Assembly (NCBI GenBank): GCA_017962275.1
Contig: JAGCVQ010000001.1
Span: 1-37,852, forward strand
Reading direction: 5' to 3'
DNA from: Bacteroidales bacterium
Lineage (GTDB): Bacteria; Bacteroidota; Bacteroidia; Bacteroidales; WCHB1-69
Length of the DNA: 37,852 bases
The position numbers were made by a program, and so were the translations under genes. Positions 29,758 through 37,076 of the stretch are shown piece by piece (position 1 is the stretch's first letter; every line of letters begins with the position of its first letter). The notes beneath the pieces were generated by a model. The model made no database searches. It saw nothing but the letters and a program-made list of their open reading frames with translations, and had not been told where the DNA came from.

Positions 29758-30228
29758 ATGAAAGTGAAATTGATTTGGATCGGCAAACCCGATGGCGACA
29801 TTTTCGATGAGGCCATCCGGTACTATGCGGGCAGAATTTCCGCCTATTTTCCTTACGAGATGGTGGCGATTCCCTATTTGAAGAATGCCAAATCCATGCC
29901 GGTGGAGGAACAGAAGAAGCGTGAGGGGGAACTGATTCTCAAGAAGATAGAGTCGGACGAATACGTAGTCTTGTGGGATGAGCGCGGCAAAGAAAAGACT
30001 TCGATGCAGTTCGCGGAGTTCATCCAGCAGCGTGCCAACTCGGGGTTGAAGACGCTCACGTTCGTCATCGGCGGCGCGTATGGCTTCTCCGACGCGGTCT
30101 ATGCCCGCCAAAATGTACAGTTAGCCCTCTCCAAGTTCACCTTCCCGCACATCATGGTGCGCCTGATCTTCGCCGAGCAGCTCTACCGGGCGTGCACGAT
30201 ACTGAAGGGGGAGCCGTATCATCATTGA
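29758..30228 (+). CDS. rlmH: 23S rRNA (pseudouridine1915-N3)-methyltransferase RlmH
   Basis: A 156-aa SPOUT-class methyltransferase that modifies pseudouridine 1915 in helix 69 of 23S rRNA on the assembled ribosome. It shows MKVKLIWIGK at the N-terminus, the YVVLWDERGKEKTSMQFAE segment, the knot region FVIGGAYGFSD, and the ending FPHIMVRLIFAEQLYRACTILKGEPYHH, all diagnostic. Length is as expected. It is the last core gene before a ~6-kb accessory region. No promoter box was recognised upstream. Confidence 0.97.
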   Translation: MKVKLIWIGKPDGDIFDEAIRYYAGRISAYFPYEMVAIPYLKNAKSMPVEEQKKREGELILKKIESDEYVVLWDERGKEKTSMQFAEFIQQRANSGLKTLTFVIGGAYGFSDAVYARQNVQLALSKFTFPHIMVRLIFAEQLYRACTILKGEPYHH

Positions 30229-30311: not shown

Positions 30312-30350
30312 AATCCAAGACAAAGGCTCGTTTTGGGTGTATATTTGCGA
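30312..30350 (+). promoter_or_regulatory. Decayed copy of the ORF6N-gene promoter
   Basis: This segment matches 31829-31860, sharing GACAAAGGCT, the T-rich spacer and TGTATATTTGCG, with the -7 box TATATTTG at 30340-30347. Where the intact copy has CTTGAC at -33, this copy has CAAGAC, so the -33 TTG is lost. It leads straight into the empty REP block. Confidence 0.65.
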
Positions 30351-30360
30351 ATGGACGTTG

Positions 30361-30592
30361 GCGTGCTGAAGGCACGCTATCCTAATAACCCCACATCAGC
30401 GGAACGAAGTGGAGCGCAGTGTGGGGTTGCGGCGACACCCGCGTAATCAGCGTGCTGGAAGCACGCAACAAAAACCAACGAAAGTAGTAGCGTGCTTTCA
30501 GCACGCCGCCGTGCGCCGTACATCGCTAACCCCACACTGCGCGACTTCGTCGCTTAGTATGGGGTTATTAGGATTTCGTGCTTTCAGCACGG
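30361..30592. mobile_element. Transposase-less REP/BIME-like element (deletion derivative of the RAYT element)
   Basis: A 232-nt block of hairpins. GCGTGCTGAAGGCACGC (30361-30377) is followed by a long AACCCCACA/TGTGGGGTT stem (30387-30428), GCGTGCTGGAAGCACGC (30450-30466), GCGTGCTTTCAGCACGC (30490-30506), a second AACCCCACACT stem (30528-30566) and CGTGCTTTCAGCACG (30577-30591). Order and spacing match the two flanks of the transposase element at 32873-33660. The left and right flanks are joined after the shared AACAAAAACCAACGAAA, with the ~470-nt transposase segment missing. Confidence 0.85.
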
Positions 30593-30614
30593 TGAATTCT
30601 GAATGGTACTGACC

Positions 30615-30704
30615 TCAAATGTTTTCATAATCAGAACGAATCAAGGAGATCAATTCATCAAAAAACTCATCAACGGAAATCGTATTCTCTATTGTTTTTG
30701 ACAT
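30615..30704 (-). CDS. Tiny hypothetical ORF, 29 aa, possibly a truncated gene
   Basis: An ATG at 30704 opens a 29-residue frame (MSKTIENTISVDEFFDELIS, then nine more residues) ending at TGA 30615, just outside the REP block. A minus-strand TATTTTTG box lies at 30737-30730, 25 nt upstream, in the Bacteroidota position. The acidic, helix-prone sequence resembles the start of a larger protein, so the REP insertion may have cut the original gene. No function can be given. Confidence 0.3.
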   Translation of the reverse strand: MSKTIENTISVDEFFDELISLIRSDYENI

Positions 30705-30768
30705 GCTGCTTACATTTCTTTTCCTGCAGCAAAAATAATATTTTTCTTTCTACAATTCCCATTTTTTT

Positions 30769-30776
30769 TATTTTTG
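30769..30776 (+). promoter_or_regulatory. -7 box TATTTTTG of the secreted 281-aa protein
   Basis: It is followed by GCACT, and the ATG at 30826 comes 49 nt after the box. The box, the 49-nt leader and the start of the coding sequence are closely similar to 33707-33812. Confidence 0.65.
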
Positions 30777-30825
30777 CACTTGAAATCAGGCTTCTACAAC
30801 TGAAGCCCTTGAATCTTATACCAAA

Positions 30826-31671
30826 ATGAAAAAACTCATCGCATTTCTGGCTTTCGCGTTGCTGTTGTCCGCGGTGTTGTCTCCTAGGATGGCTATCGCG
30901 CAAGGGGTGGGGCAGGCGGATTTGTTGGAAAGGGCTTACAGCACAGACTCATACGAGCTGCTGAGCCAGTTCTTTGACAACTGGAATCAAGAGTTGGCAC
31001 CTAATGAAGCGGAGGCCTCCGACCCTTGGTTGAAGGAGGCGTACAAGGTGTATGCCGCTGTGTGTCAGCCAGAAATACTGAAGCGATGGCACGTTTCGTT
31101 GTCTGAAACCCCGTTTCTCGTCGTGCAGAGCCAAATCGAGAAAGTCGGCTATTTACAGCAAAGCAATCGTTTTTTCAGAGATAGCGTCATCCCCTACGAT
31201 TTGAGTTTCACGGTGGTGGACTCCGCTGTGGCATTCCGACCGAATCTATTGCTGGATGGCGTTACAACCGTTTATTTGACAGACGGTTACGAACAATTAG
31301 TGAACGATTTTTTTACCACATTTCACTTGTCCCCGCTGAAAACCGATCTCCCCGACATCACAGATGAGGATATCGACGAGGGGGATTTACAATCCTTCGA
31401 GCTCCCGGCTGAATATAAAGAATCGTCGAATCGCGGGCATTTCCTTCGGAAATATGTAAGCGATATCAATCCTTGTTATTTTTCAGGTTGGCGTATCCGT
31501 CCTTTTTTTACCATAGATAAGATTATTTTCTCCCCTTCGCGAAAGTTCGCCATCGTGGAATACACATGTCATGGTGAAAATAGAGGAGGAACTATCTTGA
31601 TGGAAAAAAAGCGCGGCAATTGGGTGTTTGTAAAGGAACAGTACGTAATCGTGTGGTCACATGGTTGTTGA
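30826..31671 (+). CDS. Secreted protein of unknown function
   Basis: I do not recognise this 281-aa protein. It has a clear signal peptide (MKKLIAFLAFALLLSAVLS, cleavage probably near AIAQ at residue 26) and a soluble mature part with no further membrane helices or lipobox. The mature region is acidic in the middle (DITDEDIDEGDLQSFELP). It ends in strands that look like a small beta-rich domain (KFAIVEYTCHGENRGGTILM, NWVFVKEQYVIVW), reminiscent of hypothetical Bacteroidota secreted proteins. Its promoter, leader and signal peptide match those of the lipoprotein gene at 33764, although the mature proteins are unrelated. Other hits cannot be judged from sequence alone. Confidence 0.7.
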   Translation: MKKLIAFLAFALLLSAVLSPRMAIAQGVGQADLLERAYSTDSYELLSQFFDNWNQELAPNEAEASDPWLKEAYKVYAAVCQPEILKRWHVSLSETPFLVVQSQIEKVGYLQQSNRFFRDSVIPYDLSFTVVDSAVAFRPNLLLDGVTTVYLTDGYEQLVNDFFTTFHLSPLKTDLPDITDEDIDEGDLQSFELPAEYKESSNRGHFLRKYVSDINPCYFSGWRIRPFFTIDKIIFSPSRKFAIVEYTCHGENRGGTILMEKKRGNWVFVKEQYVIVWSHGC

Positions 31672-31747
31672 CAGGTGACGAAATCACAACATTTTGCAAC
31701 ATTCTCGCGTCGGGTCCCCCAAATCCTGCGAAATCCGACCCTAAAAA

Positions 31748-31773
31748 TTAACTATTCAAGGCTGAATAGTTAA
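31748..31773. terminator. Inverted repeat TTAACTATTCA with 4-nt loop
   Basis: A perfect 11-bp stem with loop AGGC, followed by TATATATTTTATAA. It could terminate the upstream gene, though the stem is AT-rich. Its half-site matches the palindrome at 22419-22436, so an operator is an alternative. Confidence 0.4.
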
Positions 31774-31826
31774 TATATATTTTATAACAGGCTGATTGTC
31801 AAGAACAAAAAAATATCACAAAACTC

Positions 31827-31857
31827 TTGACAAAGGCTTTTTTTCGTTGTATATTTG
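31827..31857 (+). promoter_or_regulatory. Promoter of the ORF6N gene pair
   Basis: TTG (31827-31829), 20-nt spacer, TATATTTG (31850-31857). The intact counterpart of the decayed copy at 30312-30350. Confidence 0.65.
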
Positions 31858-31899
31858 CGGATGGAAATTTAATTAATTCAATCATCAAAATAAAGTGTT

Positions 31900-32496
31900 A
31901 TGACGAACATCTTAGAAGTTGAAAACAGAATCATCACCCTTAGAAATCAGCAGGTGATATTGGATTCCGATGTGGCGGAACTGTACGGCGTGCAGACCAA
32001 AGAAATCAACCAAGCGGTAAGGAACAATCCAGAGAAGTTTCCCGAAGGATACATTTTCGAATTGAGCGAAGTGGAGAAATCAGAACTGGTCAAAATTTTT
32101 GACCGGTTCAACAGACAGAAACACTCAACCACGTCTCCGAAAGCCTTCACCGAAAAGGGCCTCTATATGCTGGCGACCATTCTGAAAAGTCCGCAGGCAG
32201 TGGAGACTACTATCGCCATCGTGGAGGCGTATGCGAAACTGAAGGAGCTGTCGAGAGTTATCATACAGGTTCCGCAGCAAGAGGAGAACTCCGTGGAGCA
32301 GAAAACGTTGCTGCAGCGCGGCGGTCAGTTGGTGGAGGATCTTCTGACGGACGTGTTACCGGTCCAGAGCAGCGAGACCTCCTTTGAGCTGAACTTGGCG
32401 ATGTTCAAGTTCAAGCACTCGGTGAAACGGGAGAATGACGATGAAATCCGCGCGTTGAAGGAACGGGTTGAGAAACTGGAACGGGGAGAAAACTGA
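31900..32496 (+). CDS. ORF6N domain-containing protein
   Basis: A 198-aa protein with an N-terminal ORF6N domain (about residues 8-100: RIITLRNQQVILDSDVAELYGVQ, then EINQAVRNNPEKFPEGYIFEL and KAFTEKGLYMLATILKSPQA). It is a DNA-binding-type domain found in phage antirepressors and many Bacteroidota chromosomal genes. The C-terminal part (100-198) ends in a predicted coiled coil (EIRALKERVEKLERGEN). The biological role is unknown; it is likely a regulator or an accessory of the mobile cassette. A truncated paralogue follows 25 nt later with a copied leader (AATCATCAAAATAA). It has its own promoter. Confidence 0.85.
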   Translation: MTNILEVENRIITLRNQQVILDSDVAELYGVQTKEINQAVRNNPEKFPEGYIFELSEVEKSELVKIFDRFNRQKHSTTSPKAFTEKGLYMLATILKSPQAVETTIAIVEAYAKLKELSRVIIQVPQQEENSVEQKTLLQRGGQLVEDLLTDVLPVQSSETSFELNLAMFKFKHSVKRENDDEIRALKERVEKLERGEN

Positions 32497-32521
32497 AATA
32501 TAATCATCAAAATAAGGTATT

Positions 32522-32866
32522 ATGACAAACATTGTAGAGGTTGAAAACAAGATCATCACCCTCAGAAATCAGCAGGTGATATTGGCAAATCATGTGACAG
32601 AGCTTTATGGCGTGGAAACGCGAGAAGTGAACCAGGCAATAAAGAACAATCCAGAGAAGTTCCCCGAAGGGTACGTCTTTGAACTCGTCCAGTCCGAAAG
32701 AGATGAGGTTGTCAAAATTTTTGATAACCTCGGAAACATCCGCTATTCACCCTCAAAGCCCAAAGCTTTCACAGAAAAAGGTCTCTATATGTTAGCGACC
32801 ATTCTGAAAAGTCCGCAGGCAGTGGAGACAACCATTGCGATAGTGGAGGCGTATGCGAAACAGTGA
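32522..32866 (+). pseudogene. Truncated ORF6N-domain paralogue, cut at the REP block
   Basis: A 114-aa frame, close in sequence to the first 113 residues of the preceding gene (ITLRNQQVILANHVTELYGVE, NNPEKFPEGYVFEL, KAFTEKGLYMLATILKSP). It ends at EAYAKQ, where the first copy continues EAYAKLKELSR. The divergence point lies 6 nt before the REP left block at 32873, so the C-terminal half was lost when REP DNA arrived or recombined. The ORF6N domain itself is complete, so a functional short protein remains possible. The -20 to start segment duplicates that of the first gene, pointing to tandem duplication of leader plus gene. Confidence 0.75.
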
Positions 32867-33008
32867 ACCTCGGCGTGCTGGAAGCACGCTATCCTAATAA
32901 CCCCACACTAAGCGATGAAGTCGCGCAGTGTGGGGTTGAAGCGGAACCCGCGTCGTCGGCGTGCTGGAAGCACGCAACAAAAACCAACGAAAACCAAATA
33001 ATCAACTT
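32867..33008. repeat. Left REP hairpin block of the RAYT element
   Basis: GCGTGCTGGAAGCACGC hairpins at 32873-32889 and 32959-32975 flank a long stem, AACCCCACACT (32899-32909) with its complement at 32927-32937; the inner loop holds a GCGA/TCGC stem. The block ends with AACAAAAACCAACGAAA, identical to the empty element at 30467-30483. Confidence 0.85.
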
Positions 33009-33660
33009 ATGAGTTATACACAATCTTTTTACCACATCGTTTTCCGCACTTACCGTAGCAAACCGACAATCCCCATAGAGCACGATCGCGAACTATATGC
33101 CTATATCTATGGCATAGCAAGAAATCTCAACTGCCAGACCTATCGCATTGGGGGTATGCCTGACCATGTTCATATTTTTGTGTCATTGCCGCCAACGCTG
33201 ACGGTGGCTTCCTTTGTGCAACGAGTGAAGACGGATAGCGGTAAATGGCTGAAAGCGAACGCGAACTTCCCTGATTTCGATGGTTGGGCGAGAGAATATG
33301 CCGGTTTTAGCAAAAGTGCAAGTGAAAAGGATACGATAATCAGTTATATCATGCGACAGAAAGAGCATCACAAACGGATTACATTCGCAGAGGAGTACCG
33401 GGCGTTTCTTGTAGAAAATGGAATTGTGATTGACGAGCGTTATTTTTTGAAGGACGATTAGTTGCGTGCTTTCAGCACGCCGCCTTCTCCCCGAGCATCG
33501 CCACCCCACACTGCGCCCCACTTCGTTACGCTTATGTGGGGTTATTAGGATTTCGTGCCTCTGGCACGCTATCCCACACCGCGCGTTGCATGCTTCACAC
33601 TGCGCTCAGCTTCGTTACGCTTATGTAGAGACTATTAAGATTTCGCGTTTTCCAGCACGG
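32873..33660 (+). mobile_element. REP-associated Y1 transposase element
   Basis: The complete unit is left REP block, single transposase gene and right REP block. All hairpins share the GCGTGCT...AGCACGC arms and AACCCCACA-type stems. It follows a truncated ORF6N gene and precedes the promoter of a lipoprotein gene. There are no target-site duplications, as expected for Y1 single-strand transposition. An empty derivative lies at 30361-30592. Confidence 0.82.
33009..33461 (+). CDS. REP-associated tyrosine transposase (IS200/IS605 TnpA-like, RAYT)
   Basis: A 150-aa single-strand HUH endonuclease. The HUH motif is DHVHIF (H53, H55). The nucleophile is predicted to be Y113 in YIMRQ, with Q117 four residues later as in the IS608 TnpA active site. 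The EHHKRITFAEEY segment after it is typical of Bacteroidota members. No TnpB-type partner is present. The frame extends to 32961, but ATG 33009 gives MSYTQSFYHIVFRTY, the normal TnpA opening. The gene stands alone between REP hairpins, and all catalytic residues are intact. RAYTs are domesticated relatives of IS200 that act on REP sequences; a plain IS200-type transposase is the alternative. Confidence 0.9.
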   Translation: MSYTQSFYHIVFRTYRSKPTIPIEHDRELYAYIYGIARNLNCQTYRIGGMPDHVHIFVSLPPTLTVASFVQRVKTDSGKWLKANANFPDFDGWAREYAGFSKSASEKDTIISYIMRQKEHHKRITFAEEYRAFLVENGIVIDERYFLKDD

Positions 33661-33763
33661 TGCATTCTGACAGATTCTTTTTTTCTGTGTGCTATTACAT
33701 TTTTTCTATTTTTGCACTCAAAATCAGACCCCGATAACCGAAATCCGCGTATCTTACACCAAA
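33462..33763. repeat. Right REP block and promoter region of the lipoprotein gene
   Basis: A GCGTGCTTTCAGCACGC hairpin (33464-33480) is followed by a CCCCACA/TGTGGGG stem region and a CGTGCCTCTGGCACG hairpin (33555-33570). A second degenerate copy of the same unit runs to 33660 (both contain TTCGTTACGCTTATGT and ATT(A)AGATTTCG). The promoter of the next gene starts after it. No gene in this 302-nt stretch. Confidence 0.8.
33707..33714 (+). promoter_or_regulatory. -7 box TATTTTTG of the FISUMP lipoprotein gene
   Basis: It lies 49 nt before the ATG at 33764, exactly the spacing seen at 30769-30826, with a matching GCACT and ACCAAA leader. Confidence 0.65.
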
Positions 33764-35575
33764 ATGAAGAACCTCCTCGCATTCCTGACTTTCGCGTTGC
33801 TCTTTTCCGCGTGTGCGACCGTGCGCGACTGTGACGGGAATCGCTACCGCACGGTGAAGATCAACGGCATGCACTGGATGGCGGAGAACCTGCGGACGAC
33901 GCATTACGCCGATGGGAGTCCGATTCCGAAGGGCGATGCGACCACCCGAGATACGATTGGGGCTTACTATTTCGACTACGGGAACAGCAAGGATTCCGTG
34001 CGGAAATACGGGCTGCTCTACACTTGGGAGGCGACGGTGCGCGAGACCGACACTGCCTCAGCCCACGTACAAGGTGTCTGTCCCGACGGCTGGCACCTGC
34101 CGGACGATGCGGAATGGACGGCCATGACCCAGGGCTGCACCTCCGAAAGATACCTTAACAGAATCCCCGTTTCATCCCAAAACATGCGGATAATCAAGCG
34201 GTTTGTGCGTCCGCCACGGAGCGGCTACTTCTACAGGGGTGCCTACGCCAAAGTGGGCGAAGAGTCCTTTTGGTGGAGCTCATCGCTCTCCGATGATGGT
34301 ATCGCCTTGGGTCGTTACATAGACGGCATCAGCTACCCGTGCCCGTATGTCTGCTTTGGGCAGGTGTGCAACGGTTACAGTGTGCGCTGCGTGAAGGACG
34401 GAGCGAAGATCACCACTCCGAAAACCAAGCTCAAGAAACGAGGAAAAGGGAATCCGCAGCAACTGTCGCAATTGGACATCATCACCATCCCGCACGACAT
34501 GGACATGGTTCGATCTTTTTACTCTTTCTCGGAGGGCACGCAGGTGAACACGTGGTTTCATTCTGAAAAGGACGGGCGCATTGCACTGAACTACTGTGTG
34601 GCCGGACTAAAGCCAATTACCACATTCTATACCCCGAACTATCTTCAACATTATATCCTGATTGACCATGACAATATGATTTTTCATCGGGCGCAGGATT
34701 CCACCATCTATCTTATTAACAGTCATTCAGATGTAAAAGAAACCATACAGATGAATCTATGGGACGAAAATGGGTACGACGTGGATGCTTTCACCTCGAG
34801 CTGGCATCAATATGTGCCTGTTTCAGCGGACTCGGGTTTGTTGATTACCTGTACCGGACTGGTGAACCTTCCCAGTTACCACAGGTACGATATGCGTTTG
34901 AGACTTTACTCCCGCCCTATGTTCCACGTTTTTTCGTTCAAGGACGGTCAATTCAATCCGATTCAGGGCTTGGGCGTATATCCAGCTGTTCACCGCAGCA
35001 AGAAGATTATGCACGACAATTACAACTACATCTCTACTATGAACCGGGACACAGATGTGGTAGCGATTTATAACTTCATAGATTCCATCTATGTCATTCA
35101 CCGTGACGGCACGCAGGAACAGCACTATTTCCACAGCAAATACCAGAAGCATGCCCACGAAAACTATGACACGCTGAACACTTACAACTATGCGGAATTA
35201 AGTCGGACGAGAATTGCACGAACAAATTACATTGGTGTGGTTTATGATGCCTTTCGGAATCTGTACTATATAATCGTGGCCAAACCGATTCCATACGAGA
35301 ACAAAGACGGCACCCGCAACAGTTCTGACGACCAGCCGTGGTCGATGATAGTGCTCAATTCCGATTTCCAGCAGATCGCGGAAATTGACATGCCGGACTG
35401 CTTGAGCAAATACCAAATGATGGTGGTGCCGAAAGGTATCGCGCTGATGGACAAGCGGTTGTCGGATGACGAAAAAACCTGTTATGTGATTTTGAAATAC
35501 AATGAAAAAGACCTGTATAATACTGACATTGCTGCTGTTCGGAGGAGTTCTCGTCGCGCAGCCGGTCGCCAATGA
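33764..35575 (+). CDS. FISUMP-domain lipoprotein fused to a propeller-like (DUF4221-like) domain
   Basis: A 603-aa predicted envelope lipoprotein with a signal peptide and lipobox FSAC (C17). Residues about 20-225 form a Fibrobacter succinogenes major paralogous (TIGR02145) domain: DCDGNRYRTVKINGMHWMAENLRTT, CPDGWHLPDDAEW, closing NGYSVRCVKD. After a basic linker (KTKLKKRGKGN) residues about 240-590 look like a beta-propeller of the DUF4221 sort (repeated strands, ending CYVILKYNE); this part is less certain. The start is ATG 33764, not the longer frame from 33689. The frame overlaps the next gene by 74 nt, and its last ~20 residues look like read-through into that gene. The first residues duplicate those of the gene at 30826. 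Confidence 0.75.
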   Translation: MKNLLAFLTFALLFSACATVRDCDGNRYRTVKINGMHWMAENLRTTHYADGSPIPKGDATTRDTIGAYYFDYGNSKDSVRKYGLLYTWEATVRETDTASAHVQGVCPDGWHLPDDAEWTAMTQGCTSERYLNRIPVSSQNMRIIKRFVRPPRSGYFYRGAYAKVGEESFWWSSSLSDDGIALGRYIDGISYPCPYVCFGQVCNGYSVRCVKDGAKITTPKTKLKKRGKGNPQQLSQLDIITIPHDMDMVRSFYSFSEGTQVNTWFHSEKDGRIALNYCVAGLKPITTFYTPNYLQHYILIDHDNMIFHRAQDSTIYLINSHSDVKETIQMNLWDENGYDVDAFTSSWHQYVPVSADSGLLITCTGLVNLPSYHRYDMRLRLYSRPMFHVFSFKDGQFNPIQGLGVYPAVHRSKKIMHDNYNYISTMNRDTDVVAIYNFIDSIYVIHRDGTQEQHYFHSKYQKHAHENYDTLNTYNYAELSRTRIARTNYIGVVYDAFRNLYYIIVAKPIPYENKDGTRNSSDDQPWSMIVLNSDFQQIAEIDMPDCLSKYQMMVVPKGIALMDKRLSDDEKTCYVILKYNEKDLYNTDIAAVRRSSRRAAGRQ

Positions 35576-35969: not shown

Positions 35970-36006
35970 GATTAAAAAAAATTTCCCCACTAGTGTAACC
36001 TTTTGC

Positions 36007-36014
36007 TATTTTTG
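36007..36014 (+). promoter_or_regulatory. -7 box TATTTTTG for the sigma factor gene
   Basis: Followed by CGTC, 27 nt before the ATG at 36042. No clear -33 TTG at standard spacing. Confidence 0.55.
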
Positions 36015-36041
36015 CGTCATCATCATGAACAAGGCGAAAAA

Positions 36042-37076
36042 ATGGAGAATGCGGCATTTTGGGAGCGGATGTATGCGGCCAACATCGGACGGATGATCGG
36101 GCTTTGCCACCGCTATGTCAATGACTTGGCGTTGGCGGAGGACCTGGCGCACGAGGCGTTCCTCAAGGCGATGGAACGTTCCGACACCTACCGCGCCACT
36201 GGCAATTTCGAAGCTTGGCTGATGCGCATCACCGTGAACCACGCCATTCAGCACCTGCGGGAAAGCATCAATACCGTGACGATTGTGGAGGAGGAAACGC
36301 CGGATGTCACAGCGGAGGAAGCCCCGATTTGGGAGATGGACTTCACCCAAGAGGAACTGCTCGCGGCGGTGCAACAGCTGCCGATCCGACTGCGCACCGT
36401 CTTCAACCTCTATGTCATTGACAACCAATCACATGCCTACATCGCCGACCTGCTGAACATCTCCATCGCCAACTCCAAAGAGCTGCTGTTCCGCGCCCGC
36501 AAACGGCTGCGGCAACTGCTCACCCAAATGGCCGAAGAGAAAGAAAAACGAAAAAAGGGAGTTTTTGTCATGATACTACTATTCTTATTGCAACATTCCG
36601 AGGCCGCCCGCACCGACCGGATGTTCCGAAGCGGGCTCTCCTCGCTGACTTACGCGCCTGCGAAGCCGCTTTCTTCCACACAGATACGACAGGCGGCGGC
36701 AGAGGCACCGTCCAGTGCTGGAATCTTCGTGGCGGCCCACCGCGTGGCCCTGACTACCGCCACTATCGCGGGCGTGGCCGGCGGCGTGTGTGCGTGGCAG
36801 GTTGCCCGTACCGCCCTGAACCACAGCCCGTTGCCCGAACCGACATCGCATGTCGAGTCACCAGTTGAGTCGCCCGTCACTGTTCTCACGGACAGCACTG
36901 GGGTGACCGACAAAAAGGCAGAGGAGCTCGGAACGACCACTCCATCGGAACGTCCCGAAGCGAAAAGCAAACCCGAAATCATCGTCGTCACCAAAGAGAT
37001 TGTGGTGAACGATACGGTTGTGGTCCGTGACACCGCAATAGTGAAAGACACGGTCTATTTAATGCAAAAGCCATGA
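36042..37076 (+). CDS. ECF-type RNA polymerase sigma factor with membrane-anchored C-terminal tail
   Basis: 344 aa. Residues 1-75 are sigma region 2 (HRYVNDLALAEDLAHEAFLKAM, then FEAWLMRITVNHAIQHLR) and 105-160 are region 4 (LLAAVQQLPIRLRTVFNLYV, then YIADLLNISIANSKELLFRARKRLRQLL). Unlike ordinary ECF factors of ~180 aa, the chain goes on: a short hydrophobic stretch (173-184), a soluble segment with DRMFRSGLSSL (192-201) as in membrane-bound anti-sigma-type proteins, a likely transmembrane helix (about 236-257), a Pro/Ser/Glu-rich linker, and a tail with D-T repeats at D324, D330 and D336. If the helix spans the inner membrane, the tail is periplasmic. The start is ATG 36042; upstream frame extension uses TTG and overlaps the promoter. 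It overlaps the barrel gene by 4 nt. Confidence 0.85.
   Translation: MENAAFWERMYAANIGRMIGLCHRYVNDLALAEDLAHEAFLKAMERSDTYRATGNFEAWLMRITVNHAIQHLRESINTVTIVEEETPDVTAEEAPIWEMDFTQEELLAAVQQLPIRLRTVFNLYVIDNQSHAYIADLLNISIANSKELLFRARKRLRQLLTQMAEEKEKRKKGVFVMILLFLLQHSEAARTDRMFRSGLSSLTYAPAKPLSSTQIRQAAAEAPSSAGIFVAAHRVALTTATIAGVAGGVCAWQVARTALNHSPLPEPTSHVESPVESPVTVLTDSTGVTDKKAEELGTTTPSERPEAKSKPEIIVVTKEIVVNDTVVVRDTAIVKDTVYLMQKP

Follow-up and report, generated by a model that had tools for sequence, protein, structure and literature searches.

Transposases of the HuH Y1 type cut and join single-stranded DNA at hairpins, and one group of them, TnpAY1 subclass 1.2 with a median length of 148 aa, is entered as "no" for repetitive extragenic palindromic (REP) sequences and as generally without terminal structures in the accessible part of a published survey (PMC6006769). 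Repeats that carry GTAG are listed, in the accessible part of a second survey, for Proteobacteria, Cyanobacteria, Chloroflexi and the PVC group, and not for Bacteroidetes (PMC3733652). The subject here is a stretch of 37,852 nucleotides (the window), contig C72 of the 2.77-Mb draft genome of a rumen Bacteroidales bacterium (G000), in which a Y1 transposase that resembles subclass 1.2 in its sequence lies between two blocks of REP-like hairpins. The transposase unit belongs to one of two arrays, copy 1 and copy 2, that share an order of modules and stand between rlmH and a sigma-factor gene. It is likely that both arrays are mosaics of separate pieces that met in this variable slot, and not one copied block.

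Two arrays between rlmH and the sigma-factor gene

The order promoter, left REP block, right REP block, leader with signal peptide occurs twice, at 30319-30873 and 31829-33811, as an earlier note on this DNA had pointed out; the note also rightly placed two ORF6N genes and a Y1 transposase in the second array, where Pfam recognizes ORF6N twice and Y1_Tnp once (Table 1). In a BLASTN comparison of copy 1 with copy 2, the promoters (30319-30355 and 31829-31865) are 86% identical over 37 nt (E 3e-7), the left REP blocks (30352-30483 and 32864-32992) 85% (E 2e-36), the right REP blocks (30485-30581 and 33459-33558) 84% (E 6e-23), and the leaders with signal peptides (30741-30873 and 33680-33811) 79% (E 3e-27). 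For the REP blocks and the leader, likeness of this degree lies far beyond chance.

The note had asked of the promoters and signal peptides whether they are more alike than is usual, and the answer differs between the two. The promoter match is ordinary for its family, a dispersed module called PROM: the 36-nt cores of the two copies are 78% identical, and 48% of all pairs among 77 cores are equally or more alike (the cores were re-anchored from 90 PROM rows, 13 of which gave no comparable core). Nearest to the copy 1 core are the rlmH-side PROM blocks of the relatives G006, G038 and G027 at 83%, two bases in 36 more than copy 2. The leader with its signal peptide is a different matter, since the pair is unique in its own genome, where no match besides copies 1 and 2 was found at E < 1e-3.

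A single segmental duplication, as the earlier note proposed, is mostly unsupported, because the left REP block and the leader of copy 1 are nearer to other genomes than to copy 2. The left block is 95% identical to contig C180 of G003, 90% to G015 and 87% to copy 2; when alignment columns were resampled, G003:C180 was a closer match than copy 2 in all 1000 replicates, none of which had copy 2 closest of all. For the leader the identities are 0.89 between copy 1 and G017, 0.80 between the two copies, 0.80 between copy 2 and G017, and 0.76 between copy 2 and G015 (81% in the BLAST stretch); to copy 1, G017 lay nearer than copy 2 did in 992 of 1000 replicates, with copy 2 closest of all in 8. 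Unrooted maximum-likelihood trees of five sequences each, with 100 bootstraps, joined copy 2 with G015 for the leader (90) and with G003:C173 for the left REP block (64). Against a joint duplication identity thus speaks clearly, and the trees do so only weakly.

The slot itself varies among relatives. Module matches were counted across 40 genomes, and the surroundings of rlmH were taken from 14 relatives; the comparison genomes are drafts with a completeness of 51 to 100%. Repeats of this sort favour assembly errors in drafts, although the existence of the separate parts is backed by the comparisons with G017 and G015. PROM or its core, with ORF6N, follows rlmH in 8 of the 14 relatives (G027, G030, G028, G038, G039, G037, G006 and G031). 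The sigma-factor gene comes immediately after rlmH in G009, after a pair of small open reading frames (ORFs) in G029, and after that pair, the leader and P2, the secreted-protein gene of copy 1, in G017. None of the modules stands in sense orientation after rlmH in G032, G036 or G022; the rlmH stretch of G036 has one weak antisense promoter match. Eight of the 14 stretches extend as far as the sigma-factor gene (G027, G030, G038, G039, G006, G009, G029 and G017), the others ending early or showing none. REP or transposase was found in 0 of the 14 rlmH-side stretches, and G017 has no REP at the place corresponding to copy 1.

Other orders were met in further relatives. In G003 the sigma-factor gene and an outer-membrane-like gene are followed by PROM, then by the transposase between two REPs, and last by a piece resembling the sigma C-terminus; in G012 the order is sigma-factor gene, outer-membrane-like gene, leader and FIB', FIB being the lipoprotein gene at the end of copy 2. 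An outer-membrane-like gene also follows the sigma-factor gene of the window, and is a 72% match to the gene following sigma in G003. The search of relatives for the same module order that the earlier note had recommended yielded a further empty array, on contig C53 of G015, which reads PROM, left REP, truncated right REP, leader and signal peptide on a secreted gene, FIB' and sigma, without transposase or ORF6N.

Table 1. Features of the slot and its borders, in window positions
Feature	Position	Strand	Basis
rlmH, left border of the variable slot	29758..30228	+	PF02590 E 2.8e-51; DNA 90-91% identical in seven relatives
Promoter core of copy 1, belonging to the dispersed PROM family or left over from it	30319..30355	+	36-nt core comparisons
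REP blocks of copy 1, left and right, with 17 nt between them that match the transposase 5' untranslated region; without transposase ORF	30360..30592	+	sequence; left block 95% to G003:C180
Remnant of the pair of small ORFs (102 and 66 aa)	30599..30706	-	78% and 81% DNA
Leader of secreted-protein gene P2 (copy 1)	30741..30825	+	leader and signal peptide 89% to G017
Secreted protein P2, 281 aa	30826..31671	+	no Pfam match
PROM block, 135-nt promoter module	31724..31858	+	matches in 34/40 genomes; consensus
10-bp inverted repeat TTAACTATTC-n6-GAATAGTTAA in PROM block	31748-31773		seen once in window, 0 in 100 shuffles
ORF6N gene a	31900..32496	+	PF10543 E 5e-30; relatives beside rlmH
ORF6N gene b, 114 aa, cut short	32522..32866	+	PF10543 E 1.9e-25; sequence
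Full unit, the transposase with a REP block on either side	32872..33582	+	91% DNA to G003:C180 over 711 nt
Y1 transposase, 149 aa, DHVH and YIMRQKEHH	33012..33461	+	PF01797 E 4.7e-20
Degraded extra right REP arm	33596..33659	+	84% to 33507-33555, 77% to copy 1
Leader and lipoprotein-type signal peptide (copy 2)	33666..33811	+	80% to copy 1 and to G017
FISUMP and DUF4221 lipoprotein (FIB)	33764..35575	+	PF09603 E 4.2e-25, PF13970 E 1.7e-5; TIGR02145
Sigma-factor gene, right border of the slot	36003..37076	+	PF04542, PF08281; synteny

The transposase unit and the modules around it

Directly outside the 711-nt unit, G003 has the PROM block on the left and the sigma-like piece on the right, and the window has ORF6N on the left and a REP relic on the right. 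Gene-less doublets of the REP blocks, about 230-240 bp long and near-complete, are observed directly at three other places in the same genome (contigs C39, C82 and C28), with partial matches at C8, C103, C74 and C25. The three near-complete matches start downstream of the promoter and are thus without it; since, in addition, no other leader match exists in this genome at E < 1e-3, neither promoter nor leader is part of the dispersed unit. The pattern CTAC-n-GTAG lies between the inner hairpins of these three doublets and is not matched by C8. REP matches in the genome number 85, many of which cover only the shared CCCCACA hairpin; no total of dispersed doublets is given, because the eight CCCCACA-only loci inspected fall into a second family, whose remaining hairpins differ.

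The members of this second REP-like family (L017, L018, L020, L023, L024, L025, L028 and L030) have the CCCCACA...TGTGGGG hairpin in common and differ in their side hairpins, which are variants of CAGTCCCGAAGGGACAAGACGC. The draft genome has three Y1 genes. Another Y1 transposase, L268 (G000:C2:13540-13977), carries WQ and Y...Q..HH (YIDNQEEHH) and is adjoined by different repeated GC-rich sequences (AAGGGCCGTAGGCCTGA). The unit was also considered as a possible cargo of viruses; viral contigs gave nine weak matches (27-41% identity), and the exact PROM operator occurs in two viral contigs.

The closest transposases among named records come from rumen Bacteroidales assemblies, the best at 95%. 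From named genomes 80 related transposase loci were collected, a stop lying inside the reading frame in three, and 76 remained for the hairpin count once four with flanks below 200 nt had been dropped. Hairpins, likewise a matter of direct observation, flank the transposase on both sides in 53 of these 76, with arm sequence shared between the sides in 37; any hairpin was present in 11% of 380 control windows. Tags at the hairpin foot were surveyed in the 58 related loci with an identity of at least 60%. They are seen in part of the loci: the right tag GT[AGT]G in 36 (25 GTAG, 8 GTGG, 3 GTTG; controls 0 of 580), the left tag in 19, and tags on both sides in 13. Both tags of copy 2 in the window are GTTG, and the right one of copy 1 is GTAG.

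Copy 1 looks like a transposase unit which lost its gene, and the deletion itself would be read from its edges: 17 nt of the transposase 5' untranslated region stand on one, TAG on the other, and no gene lies between. The remnant of the small-ORF pair, 108 nt long, sits between the right REP block and the leader of copy 1 and is absent from copy 2; in G017 and G029 the pair forms open frames. The pair was considered as a toxin-antitoxin system and set aside, the likeness being by eye only and the four ORFs having no Pfam match at E 0.01.

The PROM block contains the promoter elements TTGACA / TATATTTGC. Among the matches listed, and with partial ones counted, a genome with PROM has from one to at least 21 of them, and G000 at least 19. 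The 90 PROM rows that were examined are not a random sample: C95 is in twice, and some loci were fetched for their transposase or leader. TTAAC-n16-18-GTTAA occurs in 75 of the rows. Seven rows had no downstream ORF, and 71 of the other 83 ORF references, mechanically chosen, were scanned with Pfam, the 12 omitted being partial or far ORFs, duplicates and one antisense pick. The 71 include 10 ORF6N, 7 PDDEXK_2, 7 23S_rRNA_IVP (4-helix), 5 DUF2851, 3 Competence (ComEC) and 3 Y1_Tnp, the last from loci fetched as Y1_Tnp. The family has the look of either a regulon or a dispersed promoter. On contig C31 of G031 (L237), three PROM blocks and three ORF6N genes or pieces stand in a row beside rlmH, a tandem growth of the PROM-ORF6N pair.

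A REP lies within 120 nt in 4 of the 90 PROM rows: copy 1, G003:C180, G003:C173 and G015, three of which entered for reasons other than the census. The distance from PROM to the left REP block is 12 nt in copy 1, 13 in G003:C180, 13 in G015 and 68 in G003:C173. In copy 2 PROM stands about 1 kb before the left block, with the two ORF6N genes between, and PROM is upstream of all five REP units compared in this clade. The promoter as a fixed part of transposase units in general was rejected, strict promoters being found before 12 of the 76 related transposases against 6 of 76 in antisense and 21 of 380 controls. The association is retained only in the clade that holds copy 1, G003 and G015.

Matches to the leader at E <= 1e-3 occur in 16 of the 40 genomes, 12 of which have short and weak ones only; strong matches (E < 1e-9) are confined to four, namely G000 (2), G015 (2), G017 and G012, and G003 has no match. 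The leader is shared by FIB in G000, G015 and G012 and by P2 in G000 and G017. Full-length FIB relatives elsewhere (L271-L280) have different signal peptides and no such leader, which makes an exchange of the FIB 5' end probable in the group of G000, G015 and G012. The first 677 nt of G015 FIB' are 87% identical where rlmH is only 73% identical, which suggests horizontal transfer. The leader with signal peptide was also considered as part of the REP unit, and was discarded as such because it occurs in G017 and G012 without an adjoining REP.

How the arrays may have arisen

Read as mosaics, the arrays would be made of three pieces, whose presence, borders and relatedness are direct observations. 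The first is PROM with ORF6N, as found after rlmH in 8 of the 14 relatives. The second, a unit made of the Y1 transposase with REP blocks at its ends, measures about 710 bp; copy 2 has all of it, copy 1 only the two REP blocks. The third is the leader with the signal peptide of P2, and the unrelated lipoprotein gene FIB carries another version of this piece. The unit may have inserted into an ORF6N gene: it abuts the cut-short ORF6N gene b, which stops about at the start of the left REP block and whose G031 homologue, 94% identical over 113 aa, lies inside an open frame of 451 aa. The transposase would act on REP hairpins in single-stranded DNA, cutting at their GT[AGT]G foot and moving the unit and its gene-less derivatives. 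Its transcription may be driven by the PROM block, which in G003:C180 stands 13 nt ahead of the left block, and the gene of copy 1 may have been lost through a deletion between short TAG repeats.

Several points weigh against a mosaic origin. The bootstrap values for copy 1 with G003:C180 (left REP block) and for copy 1 with G017 (leader) are 63 and 46, and the module comparisons span only about 36 to 133 nt each. The sigma border was reached in only 8 of the 14 slots. The right tag is absent from 22 of the 58 loci and the left tag from 39, and the mobility of the unit and its derivatives is something that we infer from sequence. G015 has PROM, REP, leader and signal peptide jointly, so the pieces are not wholly independent. 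Finally, an 11-nt flank, GTGMATTCTGA (10 of 11), to the right of the outer REP is common to both copies and was found in none of the other loci then compared; it would fit a shared junction or gene conversion. For the right part, an older duplication followed by gene conversion is possible.

It is unlikely that a larger composite cassette, PROM-REP-...-REP-leader-signal peptide, moves whole between species of the genus. That proposal draws on the empty G015:C53 array, which has the same order and in which the left REP block is 90% identical, the leader 76% and the first part of FIB' more alike than rlmH, on the pairing of the copy 2 and G015 leaders, and on the closeness of PROM to the left REP block in copy 1, G003:C180, G015 and G003:C173. 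The three near-complete dispersed doublets are without the promoter, however, no further leader occurs in the genome at the threshold given above, and G003 lacks a leader match altogether; REPs are near PROM in only the four rows given above, three of them fetched for other reasons, and strict promoters stand before 12 of the 76 related transposases, little above the antisense and control counts. The earlier note's reading is supported in that the modules recur as a set, in G015 too, and unsupported as to one segmental duplication; ORF6N is no general partner of the transposase.

A duplication of the segment promoter-REP-transposase-REP-leader-signal peptide within this genome, after which copy 1 lost the transposase and copy 2 gained ORF6N, is quite unlikely. 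The identical order in both arrays, their common GTGMATTCTGA flank and the uniqueness of the leader pair in the genome would agree with it. The nearness of copy 1 modules to other genomes would not, nor would a promoter match that is ordinary for its family; PROM with ORF6N after rlmH in so many relatives can hardly be a late gain, and it is an ORF6N gene, not the promoter, that lies directly left of the copy 2 REP block. A role of the ORF6N genes as functional partner or as cargo of the unit is very improbable, since ORF6N is absent from the flanks (up to 4 kb) of all 80 related transposase loci, which rules it out as a general partner, and occurs in 36 of the 40 genomes, mostly at other places; the two are adjacent in G000 and also in G018:C33, with REPs flanking each gene there, and a link within these two species is possible. 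If the arrays are mosaics, then a repeated module order can arise without joint duplication, through small repeat families meeting in one unstable slot.

Comparison with described systems

We tentatively propose, with the balance of probability still against so specific a claim, that an IS200-like Y1 lineage near subclass 1.2 has become a resident REP transposase in rumen Bacteroidales and has doublets of its own, often tagged with GTAG, and that one clade has it behind a conserved operator-promoter of 135 nt, which comEC, ORF6N, PDDEXK and further accessory genes also have. If this is true, a single regulator would govern both DNA uptake and REP mobility. The locus exposes a genus-wide operator-promoter module, and its regulator can be looked for. 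It also brings REP-like doublets, some of them tagged with GTAG, together with an IS200-type transposase in a group where two surveys, in their accessible parts, record none (PMC6006769, PMC3733652). A literature search of titles and abstract starts, covering few subscription journals or preprints, found nothing on REPs with subclass 1.2 or on the PROM module.

The transposase of the window reaches 58.1 bits with the NCBIfam model transpos_IS200 (cut-off 55) and 23.7 bits with REP_Tyr_transpos, short of its cut-off of 80; the best match among solved structures is 2f4f (E 5.5e-6). Y...Q..HH is present in the window transposase and in 75 of its 80 relatives, and Y..NP in none of the 80. The W motif of the relatives is WG in 39, WA in 9, WS in 5, WQ in 5 and WT in 2, with 20 unmatched.

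With TnpAY1 subclass 1.2, as the accessible text describes it, the window transposase shares its length of 149 aa, DHVH, Y...Q..HH and an origin in Bacteroidetes; it differs in its W motif, which is WA and not WQ, and in the hairpins that flank both sides of 53 of the 76 related loci, where the published description has none (PMC6006769). From the IS200/IS605 elements of subclass 1.1, which likewise have a small HuH Y1 transposase with DHVH, the unit is set apart by its multi-hairpin, REP-like ends and its gene-less doublets, and its draft genome by a count of three Y1 genes. The REPtron, or REPIN with its RAYT (TnpAREP, class 2), offers the likeness of a low-copy Y1 transposase between inverted REP hairpins, a foot that in part of the loci is GTAG or a variant, and gene-less doublets elsewhere in the same genome, near-complete here at C39, C82 and C28. 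The transposase here nevertheless scores as IS200, without Y..NP, and the tags of copy 2 are GTTG. The GTAG-tagged REPs, so far as the accessible part of their survey describes them, are hairpins with a 5' GTAG, and here too they occur as inverted dimers (PMC3733652).

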